A stretch of DNA of 64,000 bases from an uncultured Flavobacterium sp. (lineage in GTDB: Bacteria > Bacteroidota > Bacteroidia > Flavobacteriales > Flavobacteriaceae). Under the pieces are notes generated by a model. That model was not told the DNA's origin, did no database searches, and saw only the letters and a list, made by a program, of their open reading frames with translations. Numbering within the stretch: the stretch's first letter is position 1; each line of letters starts with the position of its first letter. The position numbers were made by a program, and so were the translations under genes. The stretch is taken from contig CAJXSU010000004.1 in the NCBI GenBank assembly GCA_913061465.1, forward strand, positions 18,164 to 82,163. Direction: 5' to 3'. Positions 45,752 through 56,571 of the stretch are shown piece by piece.

Positions 45752-45825
45752 GGCCTCGTGGCGCAACTGAATAGCGCACTGGATTTCGGCTCCAGCGGTT
45801 GTAGGTTTGAATCCTACCGGGGTCA
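45752..45825 (+). tRNA. tRNA-Arg (anticodon TCG)
   Basis: Acceptor GGCCTCG/CGGGGTC (with G-U pairs), anticodon arm CTGGA-TTTCGGC-TCCAG, T arm GTAGG-TTTGAAT-CCTAC, discriminator A. Confidence 0.93.
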
Positions 45826-45830
45826 CGAAT

Positions 45831-45889
45831 AAATAGTACAACCAAAAAAACACCAAGCTTGATTGAGTGTTTTTTTGGTTGTACTATTT
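45831..45889. repeat. Perfect 23-bp inverted repeat / hairpin directly 3' of tRNA-Arg
   Basis: aaatagtacaaccaaaaaaacac - caagcttgattga - gtgtttttttggttgtactattt. Confidence 0.9.
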
Positions 45890-45902
45890 TCAAAGCGGAG
45901 CT

Positions 45903-46253
45903 TTAAAGGATCAGTGGAGCTAATTTTACCGGGGTCACTAAATCGGAGAATTGATTCACAGGGATCAGTTCTCCATTTTTTATGTTTGATATTTCCTTCG
46001 TTAAAATCGGTATTGAGCCAAAAATAGCGTTCACTTTTGGGGTTCGAACTCGGTCGTTTGACTTGTCGTAACCCAGACCGGATGGAAACACTAAATTTTG
46101 AAGTTTTTGTTTTTGTTTTAAATCCCCTTTAGTCCAAATATTCTCAAGAGATGCGGATAAATTAAGCGCTTTATCTATAGCCAATTCAAGGTTCGAACTA
46201 TTTAATGTAATTACCATATAACTTATAATAATTTTCAAAAAATAGTTGTCCAA
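45903..46253 (-). pseudogene. Truncated C-terminus of a Bacteroidetes serine site-specific recombinase
   Basis: LNLSASLENIWTKGDLKQKQKLQNLVFPSGLGYDKSNDRVRTPKVNAIFGSI resembles the conserved tail of Bacteroidetes resolvase-family recombinases; the catalytic N-terminus is absent, the ORF overlaps the neighbouring esterase, and its 3' end reads through the tRNA-like repeat. Confidence 0.75.
45927..45938 (+). repeat. 12-bp direct repeat of the tRNA-Arg 3' end (att-like)
   Basis: taccggggtcac at 45815-45826 (spanning the tRNA 3' end) and again at 45927-45938. Confidence 0.7.
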
Positions 46254-47124
46254 TTTTTTTCATCCCAGTGTAATTATAATGATTTGCTGGTTTTCCATTC
46301 CAATCGTGAGTATAACGTGGGGTGTAGTTTTGAGCATGTGATTTGAGACTTCTTTCAATTAAAGTAACATTAGATAGATTCAGACTTGTTTCTTTCATTT
46401 TATTTATGACTTTATTACTTCCCACACCAAGCATCAAAAAAGGTAAATCATCTACTTTATAATGCAACCTGACTTTTTCAATCAGAGATGTTAGATTCTC
46501 AGCATATTTTTCAGTTGGTAGTGGTCCGTGTCTATTACCACTATCTGATTCTCCCTGAACCCACAACATCCCTGCAATTTCATAGCTACCAGGCTCCAAT
46601 TTTTCAAGTTGTAAATCAACAATCTCAATAAAATCTTTATACAATTTTCGTTTGTGTTCTTCTTCCTTTAATTGTGCTTTTTCTAGCGTCCAATTTGGAT
46701 TCCATGCACCATACAGAGAAGTGCCTCCTTCTGATCGTTTTATGAATAAAAACTTTTCATCTGGATATTTTTTTGCAAGTTCTATACCAAAAAATAACTC
46801 GGGGCCGAAGCATTTTTCTATTCTGAATTTCTTTTTTACATAATCCCAAGGATTTGTCACATCCAAAACCCCGTCTATGATAATAGGTTCTTTAATATTG
46901 TTGGTTGTTCCCTTATAATAATAACTTATATTATTTTGAGCTAATTTCAATTCTTTTTTATCTTGTTTTGTGATTTTGGAAGCATCTCCTCTACCGTCCA
47001 TATTTGATTGACCAGCAAGTAAAAAGACTTTAGTTTTATTTGTATGGGATACGTTTTCTTGAGACTGTGACGAAACAACGTTATTAAATATTAAAAATAT
47101 AATAAAGGGAAATAACCTGTTCAT
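46198..47124 (-). CDS. Sialate O-acetylesterase (SASA/DUF303)-family carbohydrate esterase
   Basis: Signal peptide; KVFLLAGQSNMDGRGDAS; RSEGGTSLYGAWNP; MLWVQGESDS. Confidence 0.88.
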   Translation of the reverse strand: MNRLFPFIIFLIFNNVVSSQSQENVSHTNKTKVFLLAGQSNMDGRGDASKITKQDKKELKLAQNNISYYYKGTTNNIKEPIIIDGVLDVTNPWDYVKKKFRIEKCFGPELFFGIELAKKYPDEKFLFIKRSEGGTSLYGAWNPNWTLEKAQLKEEEHKRKLYKDFIEIVDLQLEKLEPGSYEIAGMLWVQGESDSGNRHGPLPTEKYAENLTSLIEKVRLHYKVDDLPFLMLGVGSNKVINKMKETSLNLSNVTLIERSLKSHAQNYTPRYTHDWNGKPANHYNYTGMKKIGQLFFENYYKLYGNYIK

Positions 47125-47272
47125 AATAAATGATTTTATGCTACAAATTTAAGGAATACAACAAAATTTTCACTATTTACTTAAAATAATTTCATTAAAA
47201 TTTAAGGATTCAAAAACTAAAAATTATACAGTACATATTACTTTTAATATTTTAAGTAAATGAAACTGATTA

Positions 47273-47319
47273 GGAGCCGAAAATGGTAGACACGTTGGAT
47301 TAAAATCCAATTTTTATAG
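47273..47319 (+). pseudogene. Degenerate tRNA-Leu-like fragment (D arm, anticodon arm and start of variable region only)
   Basis: ggagccgaaaatggtagacacgttggattaaaatccaatttttatag resembles GGCGGAATTGGTAGACGCGTTGGATTTAAAATCCAATTTTT of tRNA-Leu; anticodon loop 1 nt short, D-stem unpaired, no acceptor or T arm. Confidence 0.5.
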
Positions 47320-48693
47320 TATACTTTCTTTAAATGCTTTTTTTAATAGTTTTCTTAATACGTCATAACCATCTGAGTTTAAATGTAAGCCGTCTTGAAG
47401 TAAAAACCGCTCATCAACCGTATTGTTCTTCATCATTGCTGAATAAAAATCAATATATCTTAAAAAGCTTTTTTCATTACTTAAATCACACATTAGTTGA
47501 TTTATGGTTTGTATCGTTTTCAATTTATCGATTCTTTCAAACGAAGGCTTAATGGAAATATTAAAAATAAGGGTGTCTGGAAATTTTCTATTTATGACTA
47601 TAATAAATTTTTTAATCAGTGCCACAATCTTTTTAGCTGAGTACCCCAGATTTAGATCATTGCCCCCTAAGTACAAGACGATTGCTTTTGGCGCCTCAAA
47701 AGTAAAAAGAGATTCAAAGTGATGTCTAAGAGATTCAATATAGGCCCCTCCAAACCCTAAGTTCAAAACGTTTAAGGTTTTAAAGTCATTTTCAATAGTT
47801 TTCCATAGTCTAATTGAGGAACTTCCGTAAAAAACCACTAAATTTTTCGTATTATGTTTGTGTCTTATTTTTTTCTTAAGTGCTTTTATTTCACTTGTGA
47901 AATGGGTGTCCTTTTTATTTAATTCAGTTACCCATGTCTTGTACCTAATATTTAAGTTTTCAATTACCCTTTTAATTAGGGGGTCTTCAGAAGATTGAAT
48001 ACCATATTCACTCATTTTAAATGGTGGCATTATTTGACACTTATAAACCGCTTCCGATGGGAGTTTGTCAAAGCCTGTCATCACTAAGGGTACTATATAG
48101 GGCTGTTCTTTCATACTAGCAGCCAGTTTAAAAATTCCTAACCAAAATGAGCCAGGTGAGTTTTCAGTGGTATAAGAACTGCCCTCTGGGTTAAATACTA
48201 CGTCTATTTGTTGTTCTAAATTTTCTATCGTTTCTAGCCGAAACGCTTCATGTGCTTTCTTTACCGTTTGTTTGTTTAAGTTGGGAGGTGTGAATGCTTT
48301 TGAATAGACTTTAATATAATCCAGTTTGTCGTAATAGGTTTTGTGATTCGTTTCCCCGGGTAGGGCATGTCTTACGATTCTGATACCGGGAGTATTATAA
48401 TACTTGTATACTATTTTACTGCTAATAAAATGGCTATCCAAAGTGAGTTGAAAATTAGTATCAACAGTGAAATAGTCATGATTTAATAAATGATTGTAAA
48501 TAAAGATAGACCCCTTTGAATAGGGGAGATTCTCAGAGCCTTTAATTTCGTAATTAAGGCAGTCAAAAGCCGCATTTATATTTTCAGCACATTGAATGCG
48601 TATGTCGTTCGCAGAAAACTGCTGATCAGACTCCACAACTTCACGATAAGCTCTTTTTAGATCACGTAAAAATTTTTTATTTATCTTTTTCAT
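47314..48693 (-). CDS. Fusion protein: PlsC-like acyltransferase + SGNH/GDSL hydrolase
   Basis: N-term SIFIYNHLLNHDYF (NHxxxxD) and VVFNPEGSSYT (PEG); C-term VVFYGSSSIRLW, LNLGFGGA, LYLGGNDLNLG, LQDGLHLNSDGY (SGNH blocks). Confidence 0.85.
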   Translation of the reverse strand: MKKINKKFLRDLKRAYREVVESDQQFSANDIRIQCAENINAAFDCLNYEIKGSENLPYSKGSIFIYNHLLNHDYFTVDTNFQLTLDSHFISSKIVYKYYNTPGIRIVRHALPGETNHKTYYDKLDYIKVYSKAFTPPNLNKQTVKKAHEAFRLETIENLEQQIDVVFNPEGSSYTTENSPGSFWLGIFKLAASMKEQPYIVPLVMTGFDKLPSEAVYKCQIMPPFKMSEYGIQSSEDPLIKRVIENLNIRYKTWVTELNKKDTHFTSEIKALKKKIRHKHNTKNLVVFYGSSSIRLWKTIENDFKTLNVLNLGFGGAYIESLRHHFESLFTFEAPKAIVLYLGGNDLNLGYSAKKIVALIKKFIIVINRKFPDTLIFNISIKPSFERIDKLKTIQTINQLMCDLSNEKSFLRYIDFYSAMMKNNTVDERFLLQDGLHLNSDGYDVLRKLLKKAFKESIL

Positions 48694-50887
48694 TTACAAT
48701 GAATTCTAGTAAATTTTTAACCCCTAAAGGGTTTTTGAGATAATACTTGGCAGCAGTTGTTTTTTTACCAACCTTGATTGTATAGGCATCCTCTGGTAAA
48801 TTTATAAACATATTTTCATCGGTTACATCATCCCCAATACAGAGTTTGAAATCATAATTTTTATTTGAAATAAGTTCTGAAACAGCAGTACCTTTATTAA
48901 ATTGACTATTTGTAATTTCAATGGCCTTATCCATGTTCAATAAACTGACATTTTCTGGAGCCAAGCCATCTACAACAGTTTTTAGTTCTACAGCTCTCTT
49001 GCTTGCTAATTCTGGGTCTACTTTTCTGTAATGCCAGACTAAACTATTTTGTTTTTCTTCTACAAAACTTCCGGGAGTTCGGTCTGTAAAAGAATTAAAA
49101 ATTGGTAAGAAGTTTTGGATCCAGTCTTTATTATTATTGATTTTTTCAGTCCATTTTTCAGTTTTGATATAGTAGCCGTGTTCAGCGACTAAAGTGAGAT
49201 TCATTCTGCCAAACCATTTATCTAGAAACAACTGATCTCTACCACTAATAATCACTAGATCAGTGTTTGAACATTGATTTATTTTGTATAATAACTTTAA
49301 TAGTTCTGGAGGGGGAATGGCTAGTTCAGGTTTCTCATTGAATTCAACTAGTGTCCCGTCATAGTCTAATAAAAGTAATTTTTTTTGGGCGGTATTATAA
49401 GCATTGGCGATAACTTTACTTATTGGATTGTCGATTTTAATAATGGTGTTGGTTTCTTTGCTTTTAGATTCAGAATTTAACTCGTCCATAAAGTCTTTAG
49501 CCCAGCGATTAACGTTGTAACGACTTAGGCGTTTTTGCATACTAAAGTTTCTTTGCTGTTGCTCCTCCAAAGGCATATTAATGGCTTTGAAGATAGCTTC
49601 AGACATAGAATTTAAATCAAAGGGGTTAACTACTAATGCTTGAAAAAGTTCTTTTGAAGCCCCGGCCATTTCACTAAGGATTAGAACGCCGTCTCCATTA
49701 ATACGTGTCGCTACATATTCTTTGGCTACAAGGTTCATTCCATCTCTAATTGGTGTGATCATAGCAATATCAGCATTTGAATAGAGATCTATTAAATCTT
49801 CAAAGCTCATAGATCGGTAGTAATACCATATGGGCGTCCAGTTTACAGTTGCAAACTTTCCATTAACTCTGCCTACAATTTCATCCGTGTCCCTTTTTAA
49901 TTTCTTGTATTCTGGAACATCTGACCTAGAGGGAACCGTAAGCATGACTAGCCGTACTTTTTCTAAATATTCTGGGTGCTTGATTAAAAACAGTTCAAAA
50001 GCTTTTATTCTATTAATTACTCCTTTGGTATAATCTAGACGATCAATTGATAAAATAAGCTTGCCATTATTTGAAGATTTTTTATGTAGTTCTATTTGTT
50101 TTTTAAGTTCTGATTTTTCATCGGACTTCTGCTCCTGTTGCTTTTTAGCGTTTAAATTAAATTTTTCGTAATCTATTCCCATAGGAAATGTATTGACTAC
50201 AACCTCTCGAATTCCGAAACTAATTTTATTAAAATTTACATCAAGTCTTAGGATCCTTTTCACAGAACTCAAAAAGTGTCTTTCATAATCATAGGTATGA
50301 AAGCCTATAAGATCTGCTCCCAAGACTCCCTCCAAAATTGACTCTCGCTTTGGAAATGTCCTGAAAATCTCAAAGGAAGGAAACGGAATGTGTAGAAAAA
50401 AGCCTATGTTAACATCGGGCCTTAGGTCTTTGATCATTTTTGGACATAACATTAGCTGATAGTCATGAATCCAAATGGTATCTCCAGCAGAAATATTTTC
50501 TATAACGGCTTCCGAAAATTTCTGGTTAATGGCTACATAGGACTCCCATTGCGCATCATTAAAAATAGAATATTCAATAAAATAATGAAAGAGCGGCCAC
50601 AAGCATTTATTTGGCAATCCATAATAAAAATCGTCTATTTCTGAATTATTTAAATTTACGGGGTAATAGCCCCCTTTATTTAAGGATATTTCTAGTGAAC
50701 CCCATGATTCATTATCTATTTCATTAATTCCGATGCCTGGCCACCCAATCCAGAGTGAATTATTTTGATTGTGGAACGTTTTCATTCCAGTAGCTAAGCC
50801 CCCACTAGTAGTGGTAAATTCAAAAGAATTATTTACCTTAGTTATCTTAATAGGAAGTCTATTTGAAACTATAATATTTTTACCCAT
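48677..50887 (-). CDS. Bifunctional trehalose-6-phosphate synthase / trehalose-phosphatase (OtsA-OtsB fusion)
   Basis: IIVSNRLPIKI...TSGGLATGM; IWIHDYQLMLCPKMIK; LSIDRLDYTKGVINRIKAFE; C-terminal HAD LLLLDYDGTLVEFNEKPELA, CIGDDVTDENMF. Confidence 0.96.
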   Translation of the reverse strand: MGKNIIVSNRLPIKITKVNNSFEFTTTSGGLATGMKTFHNQNNSLWIGWPGIGINEIDNESWGSLEISLNKGGYYPVNLNNSEIDDFYYGLPNKCLWPLFHYFIEYSIFNDAQWESYVAINQKFSEAVIENISAGDTIWIHDYQLMLCPKMIKDLRPDVNIGFFLHIPFPSFEIFRTFPKRESILEGVLGADLIGFHTYDYERHFLSSVKRILRLDVNFNKISFGIREVVVNTFPMGIDYEKFNLNAKKQQEQKSDEKSELKKQIELHKKSSNNGKLILSIDRLDYTKGVINRIKAFELFLIKHPEYLEKVRLVMLTVPSRSDVPEYKKLKRDTDEIVGRVNGKFATVNWTPIWYYYRSMSFEDLIDLYSNADIAMITPIRDGMNLVAKEYVATRINGDGVLILSEMAGASKELFQALVVNPFDLNSMSEAIFKAINMPLEEQQQRNFSMQKRLSRYNVNRWAKDFMDELNSESKSKETNTIIKIDNPISKVIANAYNTAQKKLLLLDYDGTLVEFNEKPELAIPPPELLKLLYKINQCSNTDLVIISGRDQLFLDKWFGRMNLTLVAEHGYYIKTEKWTEKINNNKDWIQNFLPIFNSFTDRTPGSFVEEKQNSLVWHYRKVDPELASKRAVELKTVVDGLAPENVSLLNMDKAIEITNSQFNKGTAVSELISNKNYDFKLCIGDDVTDENMFINLPEDAYTIKVGKKTTAAKYYLKNPLGVKNLLEFIVNEKDK

Positions 50888-50912
50888 TTATTTAAATTAT
50901 AAAATTTTTTTA

Positions 50913-52703
50913 ATGCAACAAAATAAAAAGAACCTAAATTATGGAATAATAGGAAATTGCAAATCTTCGGCACTCATAAATGAGAATTCCGCAATAGATT
51001 GGTGCTGTTTGCCACAATTTGATTCCCCCTCAGTTTTCGGAAAAATACTGGACGATAAAATTGGAGGTCAATTTAAAATTGAGTGCGACCCTTCCTTTAG
51101 CATTAATCAAGAATACTTTAAGAATACCTGTATCCTTGTAACAAAATTCCAAAGTAAAAACCACGAATTTCATCTGATAGATTTTATGCCAAGATATCAA
51201 AAAGGCTCTTCTAATTACTATGCACCTCCAGAAATTACCCGGATTTTAAAGCTTGTAAAGGGGCGTCCGAGCTTCAGAGTGCTTTACGACCCCAGGCTTG
51301 AATACGCTTTGGGTGAGACTAAGAATTATGTAAAAGAAGATTTTGTAGTAAGTGTAGTGGATGCGGATCACTATGATACTTTATATTTATATACAGACTT
51401 AGATAAAAGAGAATTGTTGAGTGGGGCAAAAATGATACTTACAAAGGACCATTTTATGACCGTATCATATAATGAAAAAATAGAACTTCCCAACACTGAA
51501 TTTATACAATATGAATTTGAAATGACAAAAGTATATTGGCTTAATTGGTGTAAAAAAACCCCTTCTTTTAAAATTTATAACCATGAAGTTCTTAGAAGTG
51601 CCATGACCTTAAAATTATTAACTTTTGAAAAATCAGGGGCAGTTTTGGCTGCGGCAACTACCTCAATACCTGAAACCATAGGCGAAACAAGGAATTGGGA
51701 TTACAGGTTTTGCTGGATAAGAGATGCCTCTATGGTAATCAAAGTAATTGCCAAATTAGGCCATGTCAAAATTGTAGAAAATTTCATCCGATATATTATT
51801 GACTTAATTCCAGATAAAAATGAAAAGTTTCAAATTATGTATGGCATTAATGGTGAAAAAATTCTAACCGAAAAAACCTTAGATCACTTAGCTGGCTATG
51901 AAGGATCTAAGCCCGTTAGAGTTGGAAATGCAGCGTTTTTTCAAAAGCAAAATGATATTTACGGCATACTAATGGATGTGATTCATTATCAAATTGAAAA
52001 ATTTTCAGACAACAAAGAACGGCACGAAGAGTTGTGGACAATTGTTAAATCTATTGTTTGGGTGGTAAATAATAATTGGAAACTCGCAGATAAAGGCATC
52101 TGGGAGTTCAGAAATAACGATCAGCACTTTACATTTTCTAAACTCTTGTGTTGGGTGGCTGTAGATAGAGCAATCAAGATTTCCTATTTAATACAAGGCG
52201 GTAAATCTGCAAATAAATGGGTACGCTTAAGAGATGAAATCCATAGGGATATCATGGCTAATTCTTGGAATGAGGAAAAACAGAGTTTTATGCAATCCTA
52301 TGGTTCAGATCATTTGGATGCTTCGGTTTTACTTATGGAGTATTATGGGTTTATTGAAGCCAAAAACCCTAAGTACGTAAAAACCGTTAAGGCAATTGAA
52401 AAAGAATTAATGCACGAGGATCTACTATTTCGTTATAAAAATGAGGATGATTTCGGGACTCCAAGCTCTTCATTTACTGTCTGTTCTTTCTGGTTTATTA
52501 ACAGCCTTTATAAAATTGGTGAAGAAAAAAAATCTAAAGAATTGTTTGATAAATTGTTGGGCTTCAGCAATCATCTTGGCCTGTTTAGTGAAGATATTGA
52601 TTTTAAAACCAAGCGCTTATTAGGAAATTTCCCTCAAGCATATTCACATCTGGCATTGATAGATAATGCGATGAATTTTAATTCGGTTTCTGTTGGTGAT
52701 TAA
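50913..52703 (+). CDS. Glycoside hydrolase family 15 protein (trehalase/glucoamylase-like); start refined from 50769 to ATG 50913
   Basis: YGIIGNCKSSALINENSAIDWCCLPQFDSPSVFGKILD; IGETRNWDYRFCWIRDASMVI; KGIWEFRNNDQHFTFSKLLCWVAVDRAI. Confidence 0.94.
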   Translation: MQQNKKNLNYGIIGNCKSSALINENSAIDWCCLPQFDSPSVFGKILDDKIGGQFKIECDPSFSINQEYFKNTCILVTKFQSKNHEFHLIDFMPRYQKGSSNYYAPPEITRILKLVKGRPSFRVLYDPRLEYALGETKNYVKEDFVVSVVDADHYDTLYLYTDLDKRELLSGAKMILTKDHFMTVSYNEKIELPNTEFIQYEFEMTKVYWLNWCKKTPSFKIYNHEVLRSAMTLKLLTFEKSGAVLAAATTSIPETIGETRNWDYRFCWIRDASMVIKVIAKLGHVKIVENFIRYIIDLIPDKNEKFQIMYGINGEKILTEKTLDHLAGYEGSKPVRVGNAAFFQKQNDIYGILMDVIHYQIEKFSDNKERHEELWTIVKSIVWVVNNNWKLADKGIWEFRNNDQHFTFSKLLCWVAVDRAIKISYLIQGGKSANKWVRLRDEIHRDIMANSWNEEKQSFMQSYGSDHLDASVLLMEYYGFIEAKNPKYVKTVKAIEKELMHEDLLFRYKNEDDFGTPSSSFTVCSFWFINSLYKIGEEKKSKELFDKLLGFSNHLGLFSEDIDFKTKRLLGNFPQAYSHLALIDNAMNFNSVSVGD

Positions 52704-53053
52704 TCCTATAAAAAATTAATCCAAATCTATTGAAAAGTTCGAACTTTTGTAAGATTGGGTAACAAATTTATAATCAGACAGTTATATGTAAATATAGCTA
52801 TTTTTTTATATTTAAAAATACAATAATAGGCACACTATTCGGCACACCATATTAATATTAATTGGACTTGTTTTTAAATTATCTAGCTTAGATAATGGAT
52901 TTTAATTGAGTATGGCAGTAAACCATTTCTGATTTAGTAGTGTATGATGTGGTGTTATATTAAATAGCTGAATTGAAGGAAGAAGATATGCCTATGGTTT
53001 AGCTAAACATTAGTAGTCATTAGAAATTAATTATATTTGATTAAAAATTCATT

Positions 53054-56000
53054 ATGAAAAAACTAATATTCTTATTAGCAATTACATTTTCTACTGCATC
53101 TTACTCTACGTTTGTACCAAATACAAAAACTGATTTACAAGCAGCTGTGAACGCTTGGATTGATGGGACAATTATTGCAGATAGTTCAGTACCATCAGGA
53201 CAAGGCTCAGGAACTTATGGAGCAATGAATACTTGGGATGTTTCTTTAATTACAGATATGAGTTCTTTATTTGAAGGAAAACAAAATTTTAATGAAGATA
53301 TTTCTAATTGGAATGTGAGTAGTGTTACAACTATGGTGAGTATGTTTGAAGAAGCATCATCTTTCAATCAAGATATAAGTAATTGGGATGTGAGTAATGT
53401 TACTGTTATGAGTAAGATGTTTTTTGAAGCCTCAACTTTCAATCAACCTTTAGATTGGGAACAAGCCCCTTTTGCTGTTACTGATATGTCGTATATGTTT
53501 GCTAATGCTTCAGATTTCAATCAGCCTTTAGAATGGGGGGAAATTCCTGGGGGTGTAACTGATATGTCCTATATGTTTTATAATGCTTCAGCTTTCAATC
53601 AAGATTTAAATGTTTGGGATACAACTAATCTTAAAAATATGAAAGGTATGTTCAAAGGTGCATTATCTTTTAATGGAACTTTTAACAATTGGGATACAAG
53701 TAATGTTACTGATATGTCTGAACTTTTTTATGGAGCCTCAACTTTTAACGGGGATATAAGTAATTGGGATACAAGTAGTGTTACTGATATGAATTCTATG
53801 TTTAATGGAGCCTCAACTTTCAATCAACCTTTAGATTGGGAACAAGCCCCTTTTGCTGTTACTGATATGTCGTATATGTTTGCTAATGCTTCAGATTTCA
53901 ATCAGCCTTTAGAATGGGGGGAAATTCCTGGGGGTGTAACTGATATGTCCTATATGTTTTATAATGCTTCAGCTTTCAATCAAGATTTAAATGTTTGGGA
54001 TACAACTAATCTTAAAAATATGAAAGGTATGTTCAAAGGTGCATTATCTTTTAATGGAACTTTTAACAATTGGGATACAAGTAATGTTACTGATATGTCT
54101 GAACTGTTTTATGCAGCAACTTCTTTTAATCAACCATTGAATGATTGGGATACAAGTAGTGTTACTGATATGAATTCTATGTTTAATGGAGCATCAGTTT
54201 TTAACCAACCTATTGGAGATTGGAATACAAGTAATGTCAATAATATGAGTGGTATCTTTAAGGATGCATCTGATTTCAATCAAGATATAAGTGGTTGGGT
54301 TACAAGTAGTGTTACTAATATGGGTAATATGTTTGAATCTGCAAAATCTTTCAATCAAGATATTGGTTCTTGGGATGTGAGTAATGTGTCTGATATGTAT
54401 GCTATGTTTACTTCAACAGAATCTTTCAATCAAGATATTAGCTCTTGGGATGTGAGTAATGTGTCTGATGTGTTTGGTATGTTTTATGAGGCATTAGATT
54501 TCAATCAAGATATAAGTTCTTGGAATGTAAGTAGTGTTACTGATATGGGGTATATGTTTTATAATGCAGTATTATTTAATAAAAATCTTTGGAACTGGCA
54601 ATTAAAAAGTGAAACGGTTAATGTCACCAATATGTTTAGTGGTGCAACGGCTGCTCTAGCGTTAGGATACAATACAACTCCTTCCATAACACAAGATAGT
54701 AATGATGTTTGGAGACTTTCGGATGTTGCTCTTAATATGTTTCAACCAACAACAAAAGATCAATTACAAACAGCCGTGAACGGTTGGATTGAACAGACGA
54801 TTACTGCAGATAGTCCAGTACCATCAGGACAAGGCTCAGGAACTTATGGAGCAATGAATACTTGGGATGTTTCTTTAATTACAGATATGAGTTCTTTATT
54901 TGAAGGAAAACAAAATTTTAATGAAGATTTAAGCAACTGGGATGTTAGTAATGTGACTAAAATGGATGGAATGTTTTTTGAAGCTACTTCTTTCAATCAA
55001 GATATTGGTTCTTGGGATGTAAGCAATGTGACTGGTATGGCGTTAATGTTTTCAAATGCTATTTCTTTCAATCAAGATATTGGTTCTTGGGTTGTGAGTA
55101 ATGTGACTAGTATGTATGCTATGTTTTATTATGCATCATCTTTTAATCAACCTATTGGAGATTGGGATGTGAGTAGTGTGACTGATATGTATGGAATGTT
55201 TTTTGAAGCTACTTCTTTCAATCAACCTATTGGAGATTGGGTTGTGAGTAGTGTTACTGATATGGAAGCTATGTTTGCTTATGCATCAACTTTCAATCAA
55301 CCTTTAGATTGGGATACAACTAGTCTTAGAAATATGAAAGGTATGTTCGCGGCTGCATTATCTTTTAATGGAACTTTAAACAATTGGGATGTAAGTAATG
55401 TTACTGATATGTCTGAACTTTTTTTTGGAGCCTCAACTTTCAATCAAGATATAGGTTCTTGGAATACAAGTAAAGTTACTAATATGTATGCTATGTTTTA
55501 TGAAGCATCATCTTTCAATCAACCTATTGGAGATTGGGTTGTGAGTAGTGTTACTAATATGAGTTATATGTTTACTTATGCATCAACTTTCAATCAAAAT
55601 ATTGGCGGTTGGGATGTGAGTAGTGTGACTGATATGTATGGAATGTTTTATGGAGCCTCAACTTTCAATCAAGATATAGGTTCTTGGGATGTGGCTAATG
55701 TGATTAATATGAATTATATGTTTTTTGATGCATCCTCTTTTAATCAAAATATATCAAGCTGGTGTGTTACAAATATTGCTTCAGAACCATCGGGTTTTAG
55801 TAACTCATTATTATCTGAAAGTTATATGCCAGTTTGGGGTACTTGTCCAACTGCTAGTGTAGACGACCAAAACCAATTAGACATTTCAATTTATCCAAAT
55901 CCTACATCAGATATCGTATACATAGAGGGTAATTATTCTCAATTAAAAGTAGTTGTTTTTGATATACTTGGAAAGCAAGTAATGAAAGAATCTATTACAA

Positions 56001-56095
56001 ACAGCATAGATATTAGCCAATTAGAAAAAGGAGTTTACATCCTACAACTTTCTGATGGTGTTAAACTAACTACACAAAGAATAATAAAGAATTAA
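53054..56095 (+). CDS. BspA-family (DUF285) repeat surface protein with T9SS C-terminal sorting domain
   Basis: Signal peptide; more than 20 repeats of [25 protein letters not shown]; C-term [22 protein letters not shown]...[24 protein letters not shown]. Confidence 0.95.
53429..53724 (+). repeat. Copy 1 of a perfect 296-bp in-frame direct repeat in the BspA-like gene
   Basis: Identical base by base to 53810-54105; offset 381 bp (127 codons). Confidence 0.95.
53810..54105 (+). repeat. Copy 2 of the perfect 296-bp direct repeat
   Basis: See 53429-53724. Confidence 0.95.
54816..54928 (+). repeat. 113-bp perfect repeat of the N-terminal module start (first copy 53187-53299)
   Basis: cagtaccatcaggacaaggctcagg...aattttaatgaagat in both places, offset 1629 bp (543 codons). 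Confidence 0.9.
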
Positions 56096-56115
56096 GTAAA
56101 ACATACTTAAAACAC

Positions 56116-56138
56116 AACCCTTACAGAAATGTAGGGGT
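56116..56138. terminator. Hairpin after the BspA-like gene, also downstream of the minus-strand sORF
   Basis: aacccttac-agaaa-tgtaggggtt followed by a T run; one G-U wobble. Confidence 0.65.
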
Positions 56139-56141
56139 TTT

Positions 56142-56285
56142 TTATTTCTCACCTGAACCTCCTATAATTTCTATTTGATACGTTTTGGGTTTTTGTGGAG
56201 GTTCTAATTGCTTAATGCTTCTTAATTTTGGAATTACATACTGTAATCCTATTTGAATGAACTTTAACTTTTCTTGTTGATTCAT
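56142..56285 (-). CDS. Small ORF, 47 aa (below the ORF-track cutoff)
   Basis: ATG at 56285 (minus) to TAA at 56142: MNQQEKLKFIQIGLQYVIPKLRSIKQLEPPQKPKTYQIEIIGGSGEK. Confidence 0.55.
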   Translation of the reverse strand: MNQQEKLKFIQIGLQYVIPKLRSIKQLEPPQKPKTYQIEIIGGSGEK

Positions 56286-56376
56286 TGAATTTGTATCTAA
56301 TGATTAGAAAAACTTATTAATAGGTTAGACGAATTCCTAATTAAGCTTATAAATCTTTTATCATTATATTTGGGTT

Positions 56377-56571
56377 ATGAATGATAAAAAGTCTTGGTCT
56401 TTATTTATAATATCTCTTTTTTCTTTAGGTTATGGAGTAGTTGCTTATGGGTCTTCTGAAATTTTTTTGAGACCAGTAGAACAAGCATTTATATGTATTT
56501 GTATAGGAATCTTTCTAATAATCAATGTCTTTCTTTGGAAGAACAACTTTTTTAATAGAAAGGAGCAATAA
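56377..56571 (+). CDS. Small two-TM membrane protein, 64 aa
   Basis: SLFIISLFSLGYGVVAYGS and AFICICIGIFLIINVFLW hydrophobic segments; TATATTTG at 56365-56372 just upstream. Confidence 0.55.
   Translation: MNDKKSWSLFIISLFSLGYGVVAYGSSEIFLRPVEQAFICICIGIFLIINVFLWKNNFFNRKEQ

Follow-up and report, generated by a model that had tools for sequence, protein, structure and literature searches.

The 64,000-nucleotide stretch of an uncultured Flavobacterium genome analysed here (the window) likely carries two mobile things stacked on one tRNA gene: a decayed integrative element of the large serine recombinase (LSR) type, and a miniature integrative cassette that was moved in trans. We propose that an element of 6.8 kb (45939-52763), which had an LSR and genes of trehalose metabolism as cargo, integrated into a copy of the tRNA-Arg 3' end by crossover in GGGTCAC. 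It would then have lost its recombinase except for about the last 100 codons and would no longer be autonomous. The DNA between tRNA and element, a body of about 100 bp plus its tRNA copy, would be a non-coding, non-autonomous integrative cassette of miniature size. A site-specific recombinase supplied in trans would have placed it at the tRNA 3' end, with the T-loop as the place of exchange. Such an insertion would leave a 15-17-bp copy of the host tRNA end, supply a new terminator behind the tRNA and rebuild an attB-like site at the far end. Further cassettes and LSR elements could use the rebuilt site, and tandem arrays would grow in this way. The LSR element presumably landed on the tRNA copy of the cassette, rather than the cassette arriving later.

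We give an even chance to a broader proposal, that the Flavobacteriaceae carry an undescribed class of 65-165-bp non-coding cassettes, site-specific at the 3' ends of tRNA-Arg (rarely other) genes, that are trans-mobilised, matched to the T-stem, terminator-bringing, attB-regenerating and array-building. These would be landing sites for serine-recombinase islands and an integrative counterpart of MITEs.

The target tRNA gene and its repeated 3' end

The target gene, tRNA-Arg(TCG), is located at 45752-45826 (+) (ARAGORN; Rfam tRNA, E 6.9e-11). The motif TACCGGGGTCAC, which the original prediction placed across the tRNA 3' end and again 112 bp on, was confirmed at both positions (45815-45826 and 45927-45938, 112 bp from start to start). 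These are the two copies in the 2.35-Mb assembly, both at this locus, and no further exact copy exists beyond 46 kb or anywhere else in the genome. About 0.04 chance copies are expected genome-wide (an estimate from base composition), so the repeat pair is not due to chance. The repeat is longer than had been described. The copied stretch comprises the last 17 bases of the tRNA, AATCCTACCGGGGTCAC (45810-45826, +), and the second copy extends to AATTTTACCGGGGTCAC (45922-45938, +), with 15 of 17 positions identical and a conserved hairpin module between the copies. The second copy serves both as the closure of the cassette and as the core of the LSR attL.

The serine recombinase relic and its intact counterparts

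The 116-aa ORF at 45903-46253 (-) is, judged by its sequence, an LSR C-terminal relic (homologous part about 46199-45915). A Pfam search with this ORF alone gave no match. Compared with the C-terminal end of a full-length 539-aa LSR that has Resolvase and Recombinase domains (PF00239 and PF07508), it scores 39% over 95 aa (E 4e-18 for that single comparison), and whole-genome searches gave E values of 4.8e-14, 1.2e-8 and 1.6e-29, the last match being itself a relic. Homology to recombinases is limited to about the last 100 codons, and the first 16 or so are sequence fused at the deletion edge. The catalytic (Resolvase) and Recombinase domains, both present in full-length relatives of about 540 aa, are absent. 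Alignment to the C-terminal ends of full-length LSRs thus bears out the expectation that the ORF is a serine-recombinase tail without its catalytic domain. The last codons do run through the repeat, as was also predicted: the second repeat copy is read as GTG ACC CCG GTA, and the protein ends in SDLVTPVKLAPLIL. Plasmid and phage records searched with the relic ORF gave no match at 1e-5.

Within the recombinase coding tail, sequence and junction comparison identify a hairpin, GGAGAATTGATTC..GATCAGTTCTCC, followed by a T run (45945-45974). Similar hairpins occur at intact LSR-tRNA junctions, where hairpin and T run are in or beside the recombinase tail, near the RNA gene, and they probably give the RNA gene a new terminator. 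The intact LSR genes of this genome (G000) and of its relatives lie at tRNA or tmRNA 3' ends, with their last codons inside the RNA gene. The genes used are tmRNA (G000:C24), tRNA-Asn (G000:C75 and G010:C7), tRNA-Arg(TCT) (G025), tRNA-Val (G042) and tRNA-Leu(CAA) (G022 and G049). The intact LSRs of G000 are encoded at L044:504-2408 (C24, tmRNA) and L045:5633-7234 (C75, tRNA-Asn), and G010 encodes an ortholog of the latter at the corresponding tRNA. Distal att sites of the intact LSR elements in G025, G022, G010 and G049 were not found within the stretches examined. In G047 (L066), tRNA-Asn genes and defective tRNA-Asn copies stand in a row beside an LSR-like gene, and this row may be a different kind of array at a hot spot of integration.

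Extent, cargo and polymorphism of the 6.8-kb element

At other loci the attR has a common motif, AAAGTTCGAACTTTTATAAGTTTGGGTCAC, located just upstream of the DNA that normally follows tRNA-Arg. Ten distinct sites from other species were combined into an attR matrix, and a scan of the window with it gave a single match, AAAAGTTCGAACTTTTGTAAGATTGGGTAAC, with the degenerate core GGGTAAC (52733-52763, +; 38.6 bits, next best -3.3). We therefore place the element at 45939-52763. This attR has only GGGT.AC in common with the tRNA, which is why a search with TACCGGGGTCAC could not find it. A copy of attR had been predicted near 52.8 kb; the site is there, without the exact TACCGGGGTCAC sequence. The search for a right end via the 17-bp repeat, allowing up to 5 mismatches in 17, found none near 52.7 or 56 kb. 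In general, LSR attR sites and tRNA-Arg ends have only (G)GGTCAC in common, and do not show the repeat of a T-loop exchange.

The cargo comprises a SASA-type carbohydrate esterase (46198-47124, -; PF03629, E 2.7e-29), whose 3' end abuts the recombinase relic, an acyltransferase-like or GDSL lipase-like protein (47314-48693, -; PF13472), a trehalose-6-phosphate synthase/phosphatase fusion (48677-50887, -; PF00982 and PF02358), and a glycoside hydrolase family 15 or trehalase-like protein (50916-52703, +; PF00723 and PF19291). Of 36 genomes in the genus, only 2 have the trehalose synthase gene.

Close relatives are colinear with the window on both flanks, and lack 45.9-56.3 kb. G010:C4 is colinear up to the tRNA and again further right, mostly at 86-100% amino acid identity, with nucleotide similarity restarting at 56331, in a small conserved ORF. 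This ORF (56377-56571, MNDKKSWSLFIISLF...) is the point where the backbone resumes in three related genomes. At tRNA-Arg(TCG), G010 has a simple terminator directly after the tRNA. The order in G007 is tRNA, three cassettes, an LSR tail of about 26 codons, a short stretch, a degenerate attR and DNA resembling the G010 flank. The synteny check suggested with the original prediction thus shows an island polymorphism, with both relatives colinear but without the segment.

The insertion of an LSR-driven integrative element at the tRNA-Arg(TCG) locus is supported. The relic LSR stands beside attL with its 3' end through the core, as in its intact relatives, a distal attachment site is present, and the insertion is polymorphic. 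The acquisition of the 46-52.9 kb segment, which had been suggested, holds given the attR, the relatives without the segment and the rarity of the trehalose synthase gene. Two features count against the model of the element, namely the degenerate core of its attR and the 3.5 kb of DNA past attR that has no synteny. The latter (52764-56330) is placed outside the element by synteny (shared backbone from about 56331). Between attR and the shared backbone, 53054-56095 encodes a DUF285/BspA-like T9SS-secreted protein with long internal duplications; its gene is absent at the corresponding place in G010 and G007.

The 112-bp repeat itself had been read as the attL/attR scar of the LSR element after deletion, and the tRNA-end repeat does directly adjoin the recombinase tail. 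However, the LSR core is one cassette away from the tRNA, the LSR attR lies elsewhere and differs in sequence, and the module is a separate entity with an insertion history of its own, found also behind other tRNA genes that have no recombinase in the vicinity. This distribution already contradicts the scar reading, which we regard as extremely improbable. From the predicted arrangement of att sites and recombinase we retain the LSR integration event and drop the repeat as the element's own attL scar.

Structure of the type A cassette

The body of the window cassette, assigned to type A (45827-45921, +), is defined by its fold energy (-39.8 kcal/mol, z -6.7), its similarity to the cassette at the tRNA-Arg(ACG) gene of the same genome (about 86% identical) and a family-wide pattern. 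It comprises a long terminator-like hairpin (45827-45891, +), presumably the terminator of the tRNA, then hairpin 1, AAAGC-GGA-GCTTT (45892-45904, +), and hairpin 2, GGATCA..GCTA, which starts at 45908 (+). The constant plan of the cassettes is RAATAAAT, a long hairpin with an inner T run, a short hairpin (e.g., AAAGC-GGA-GCTTT) and a second hairpin, GGATCA..TAATCC, that runs into the copy of the tRNA 3' end. Cassettes are 65-165 bp long and non-coding; no gene lies inside, hence there is no integrase gene between the tRNA and its fragment. With Rfam 15 at the gathering score, the window stretch and six other loci matched only in the tRNA itself, and the module gave sub-threshold chance matches.

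The tRNA-copy repeat starts at AATCC, in the T-loop, and is 17/17 identical at many loci; many units close with the host tRNA sequence from position 58 onward. Repeats that run from the T-loop to the tRNA end are typical of site-specific recombination in the T-loop, and on this ground we propose that the cassettes are miniature integrative elements. Many cassettes retain AATCC alone, the rest of the tRNA copy having been lost, which counts against this model. The 5' arm of hairpin 2 complements the T-stem of the host tRNA at 107 of 125 positions over 63 loci (shuffled partners gave 50 +/- 6.4, with 0 of 5000 as high; kinship among loci is not corrected for in this comparison). The ends of the cassette, GAATAAAT and GCTAATCC, are not inverted repeats of each other, and there are no terminal inverted repeats.

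Distribution of the cassettes

Searching with the tRNA and its downstream DNA, we identified the same module behind the tRNAs of several relatives. A covariance model built on the 3' part of the cassette was used to find further units, and located them in G010 and G051 (at tRNA-Arg(TCT)) and in G032 (at a tRNA-Ser); every one of these units carries a copy of the end of the tRNA that hosts it. Confident model matches are all at tRNA 3' ends except one, which follows an LSR attR. The distribution in the genus is patchy: model searches and direct reading of loci revealed cassettes in about 7 of 36 genomes. An exact-pattern scan of about 85,000 species returned 102 stretches, and the hosts among the matches listed (80 of the 102 stretches) are all Flavobacteriaceae or Flavobacteriales. 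Altogether, 77 of 109 pattern matches lie within 600 bp downstream of a tRNA, and for 76 of these 77 it is a tRNA-Arg. Of the others, most follow an LSR attR or a tRNA that ARAGORN missed, or are at the end of a contig. Viral contigs scanned with the exact pattern contained none, a looser pattern gave chance matches only, and phage and viral collections searched for the cassette or attR gave only tRNA and chance matches.

Tandem arrays are common, with units of about 45-116 bp, and the inner units may be products of slippage. Types B (at L207, L228 and L250) and C (at L203, L220 and L231) differ from type A in their bodies but not in their plan, and are found intermixed with it in arrays. In G051:C46 (L144), from a genome that belongs to a different family within the order, tRNA-Arg(TCT) is followed by two tandem 82-bp units, of which the first ends in an exact 17-bp copy of the tRNA. 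At tRNA-Leu(CAA) of the window genome (L084:4973-5377; G000:C7), a type A cassette is closed by a 15-bp copy of that tRNA end, so tRNA-Arg is not the only host. This cassette has an ortholog in G010.

Some of these features would also be expected if the modules were a conserved functional RNA or a terminator trailer of tRNA-Arg, spread by tandem duplication and gene conversion. The hairpins are strong and conserved, with stem-keeping changes, the place behind tRNA-Arg is constant, and arrays are tandem. We consider this unlikely, given that cassettes are patchy within the genus, that an exact empty site exists (see below), that other tRNAs (Leu, Ser) are used, and that gene conversion does not account for a closing repeat that fits the host tRNA beside flanks that differ.

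Insertion and movement

Our preferred reading, that the cassettes are miniature integrative elements, predicts sites with and without a unit, and one such pair is found at tRNA-Arg(TCT). The empty site (G000:C40) reads tRNA-TTAAAGCTTCACAG and the occupied site (G010:C1) reads tRNA-module-AATCCTATCGGGCTCAC-TTAAAACTTCACAG. The difference is exactly 141 bp, with a 17-bp direct repeat, and could, in principle, reflect a precise loss in G000 instead of an insertion. The G010 module is 96% identical to the unit at tRNA-Arg(TCG) in G007, but only 57% identical to the module at tRNA-Arg(ACG) in its own genome. We conclude that modules move between tRNA genes and that the closing repeat varies with the host tRNA. 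Ectopic gene conversion between tRNA-Arg genes was considered and rejected, as the closing repeat fits each host tRNA and the downstream flanks differ.

Both copies at tRNA-Arg(TCT) in G010 match that tRNA exactly and the body resembles the one at tRNA-Arg(TCG), as would follow if a transposase-like enzyme inserted the body and duplicated a 17-bp target site at one fixed position of the tRNA, both copies deriving from the target. Such a mechanism is quite unlikely in our view: there are no terminal inverted repeats, and the match of the hairpin arm to the host T-stem is expected of a pre-matched attachment site, not of blind insertion.

In our proposal, the enzyme that inserts the cassettes would be a tRNA-specific recombinase that acts in trans. 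No autonomous or large element with type A ends was found among the 102 loci, and none of the integrase genes listed from ten cassette-bearing genomes is linked to a cassette. LSRs are absent from several of these ten genomes, and G101 and G323, which bear cassettes and are at least 92% complete, gave no LSR match at all. Tyrosine integrases are encoded in 10 of 10 cassette-bearing genomes checked, but also in 14 of 14 control genomes; by correlation only, we lean towards a tyrosine integrase as the type A mobiliser. A cassette circle of 82-182 bp would be very short for ordinary integrase synapsis, which counts against the model of a miniature element.

Relics of LSR elements beside cassettes

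LSR tail relics follow cassettes in G007 and G029 (L149) and at L176, L231 and L233, and similarity to the LSR tail was also identified at L230 and L234. The tRNA copies of cassettes followed by such relics probably served as attB. In other loci an LSR attR precedes the cassette, so the element there used the tRNA itself as its point of entry. Several genomes share, at tRNA-Arg ACG and TCG, a nearly identical LSR-type mini-cassette of 101-102 bp that consists of the tRNA-side terminator fused to the LSR attR end.

This mini-cassette, together with the decay of LSR elements here to tails and short remnants, fits an alternative in which all cassettes are stripped ends of once-large integrative elements, with the terminator end and the distal attachment end fused by internal deletion, and the arrays a graveyard of integrations. 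However, the type A plan and size are uniform family-wide, no intermediate or large forms occur in the 102 loci, and near-identical bodies at different tRNA genes indicate that the short form itself moves. We regard this alternative as doubtful, though a serious possibility.

Comparison with known systems

We could not match this kind of cassette to any described element, and the literature searched contains no account of one. Of the whole locus, it is the cassette array that a specialist would not expect. It indicates that integration at tRNA genes extends beyond islands that carry genes. Throughout one bacterial family, DNA units only slightly larger than an attachment site seem to integrate, pass from one tRNA gene to another and accumulate. 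The arrays mark integration hot spots in Flavobacteriaceae and, if the proposal is true, offer a testable account of how integration hot spots at tRNAs arise and stay functional, through resupply of terminators and spare attB copies.

The closest likeness for the LSRs is in the ssrA islands of Dehalococcoides, where DsiB is a serine recombinase of about 540 aa whose gene overlaps attL with its 3' end; these islands are tandem, bounded by direct repeats of the RNA-gene 3' end, with serine-recombinase exchange inferred in the T-loop (PMC3146451). The LSRs here share the size and the overlap with attL, and the cassettes share the tandem stacking and the start of the repeat in the T-loop. The Dehalococcoides islands differ in being kilobase-sized, with integrase and cargo, at tmRNA, whereas the cassettes have no coding content, measure 65-165 bp and sit mostly at tRNA-Arg, and the LSR element here crosses over in GGGTCAC and not in the T-loop.

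Tyrosine-integrase tRNA islands resemble the cassettes in the use of a tRNA gene, the displaced 3' fragment and the restored tRNA (PMC4383910; PMC1762012). The likeness extends to T-loop exchange, with a repeat running to the tRNA end; recombination at a T-loop attB is known for the Ms6 tyrosine integrase (PMC1762012). However, the Islander signature requires an integrase gene between the tRNA and the displaced fragment (PMC4383910), and the cassettes have none. According to the same paper, no serine recombinase is known to target tRNA genes (PMC4383910), leaving tyrosine integrases as the only enzymes known to do so, whereas in Flavobacteriaceae we find serine recombinases that use them.

Relative to the cassette arrays of integrons, the units here carry no genes and end in tRNA copies. 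MITEs are short, non-coding and mobile, and presumably driven in trans, all of which may also be said of the cassettes. In contrast to MITEs, the cassettes lack terminal inverted repeats, are confined to tRNA 3' ends, and have as their repeat a fixed piece of the tRNA. REP/RAYT palindromes are short repeated hairpins located between genes and scattered through the genome. The cassettes are likewise short repeated hairpins, but they have few copies per genome and are tied to tRNA genes.
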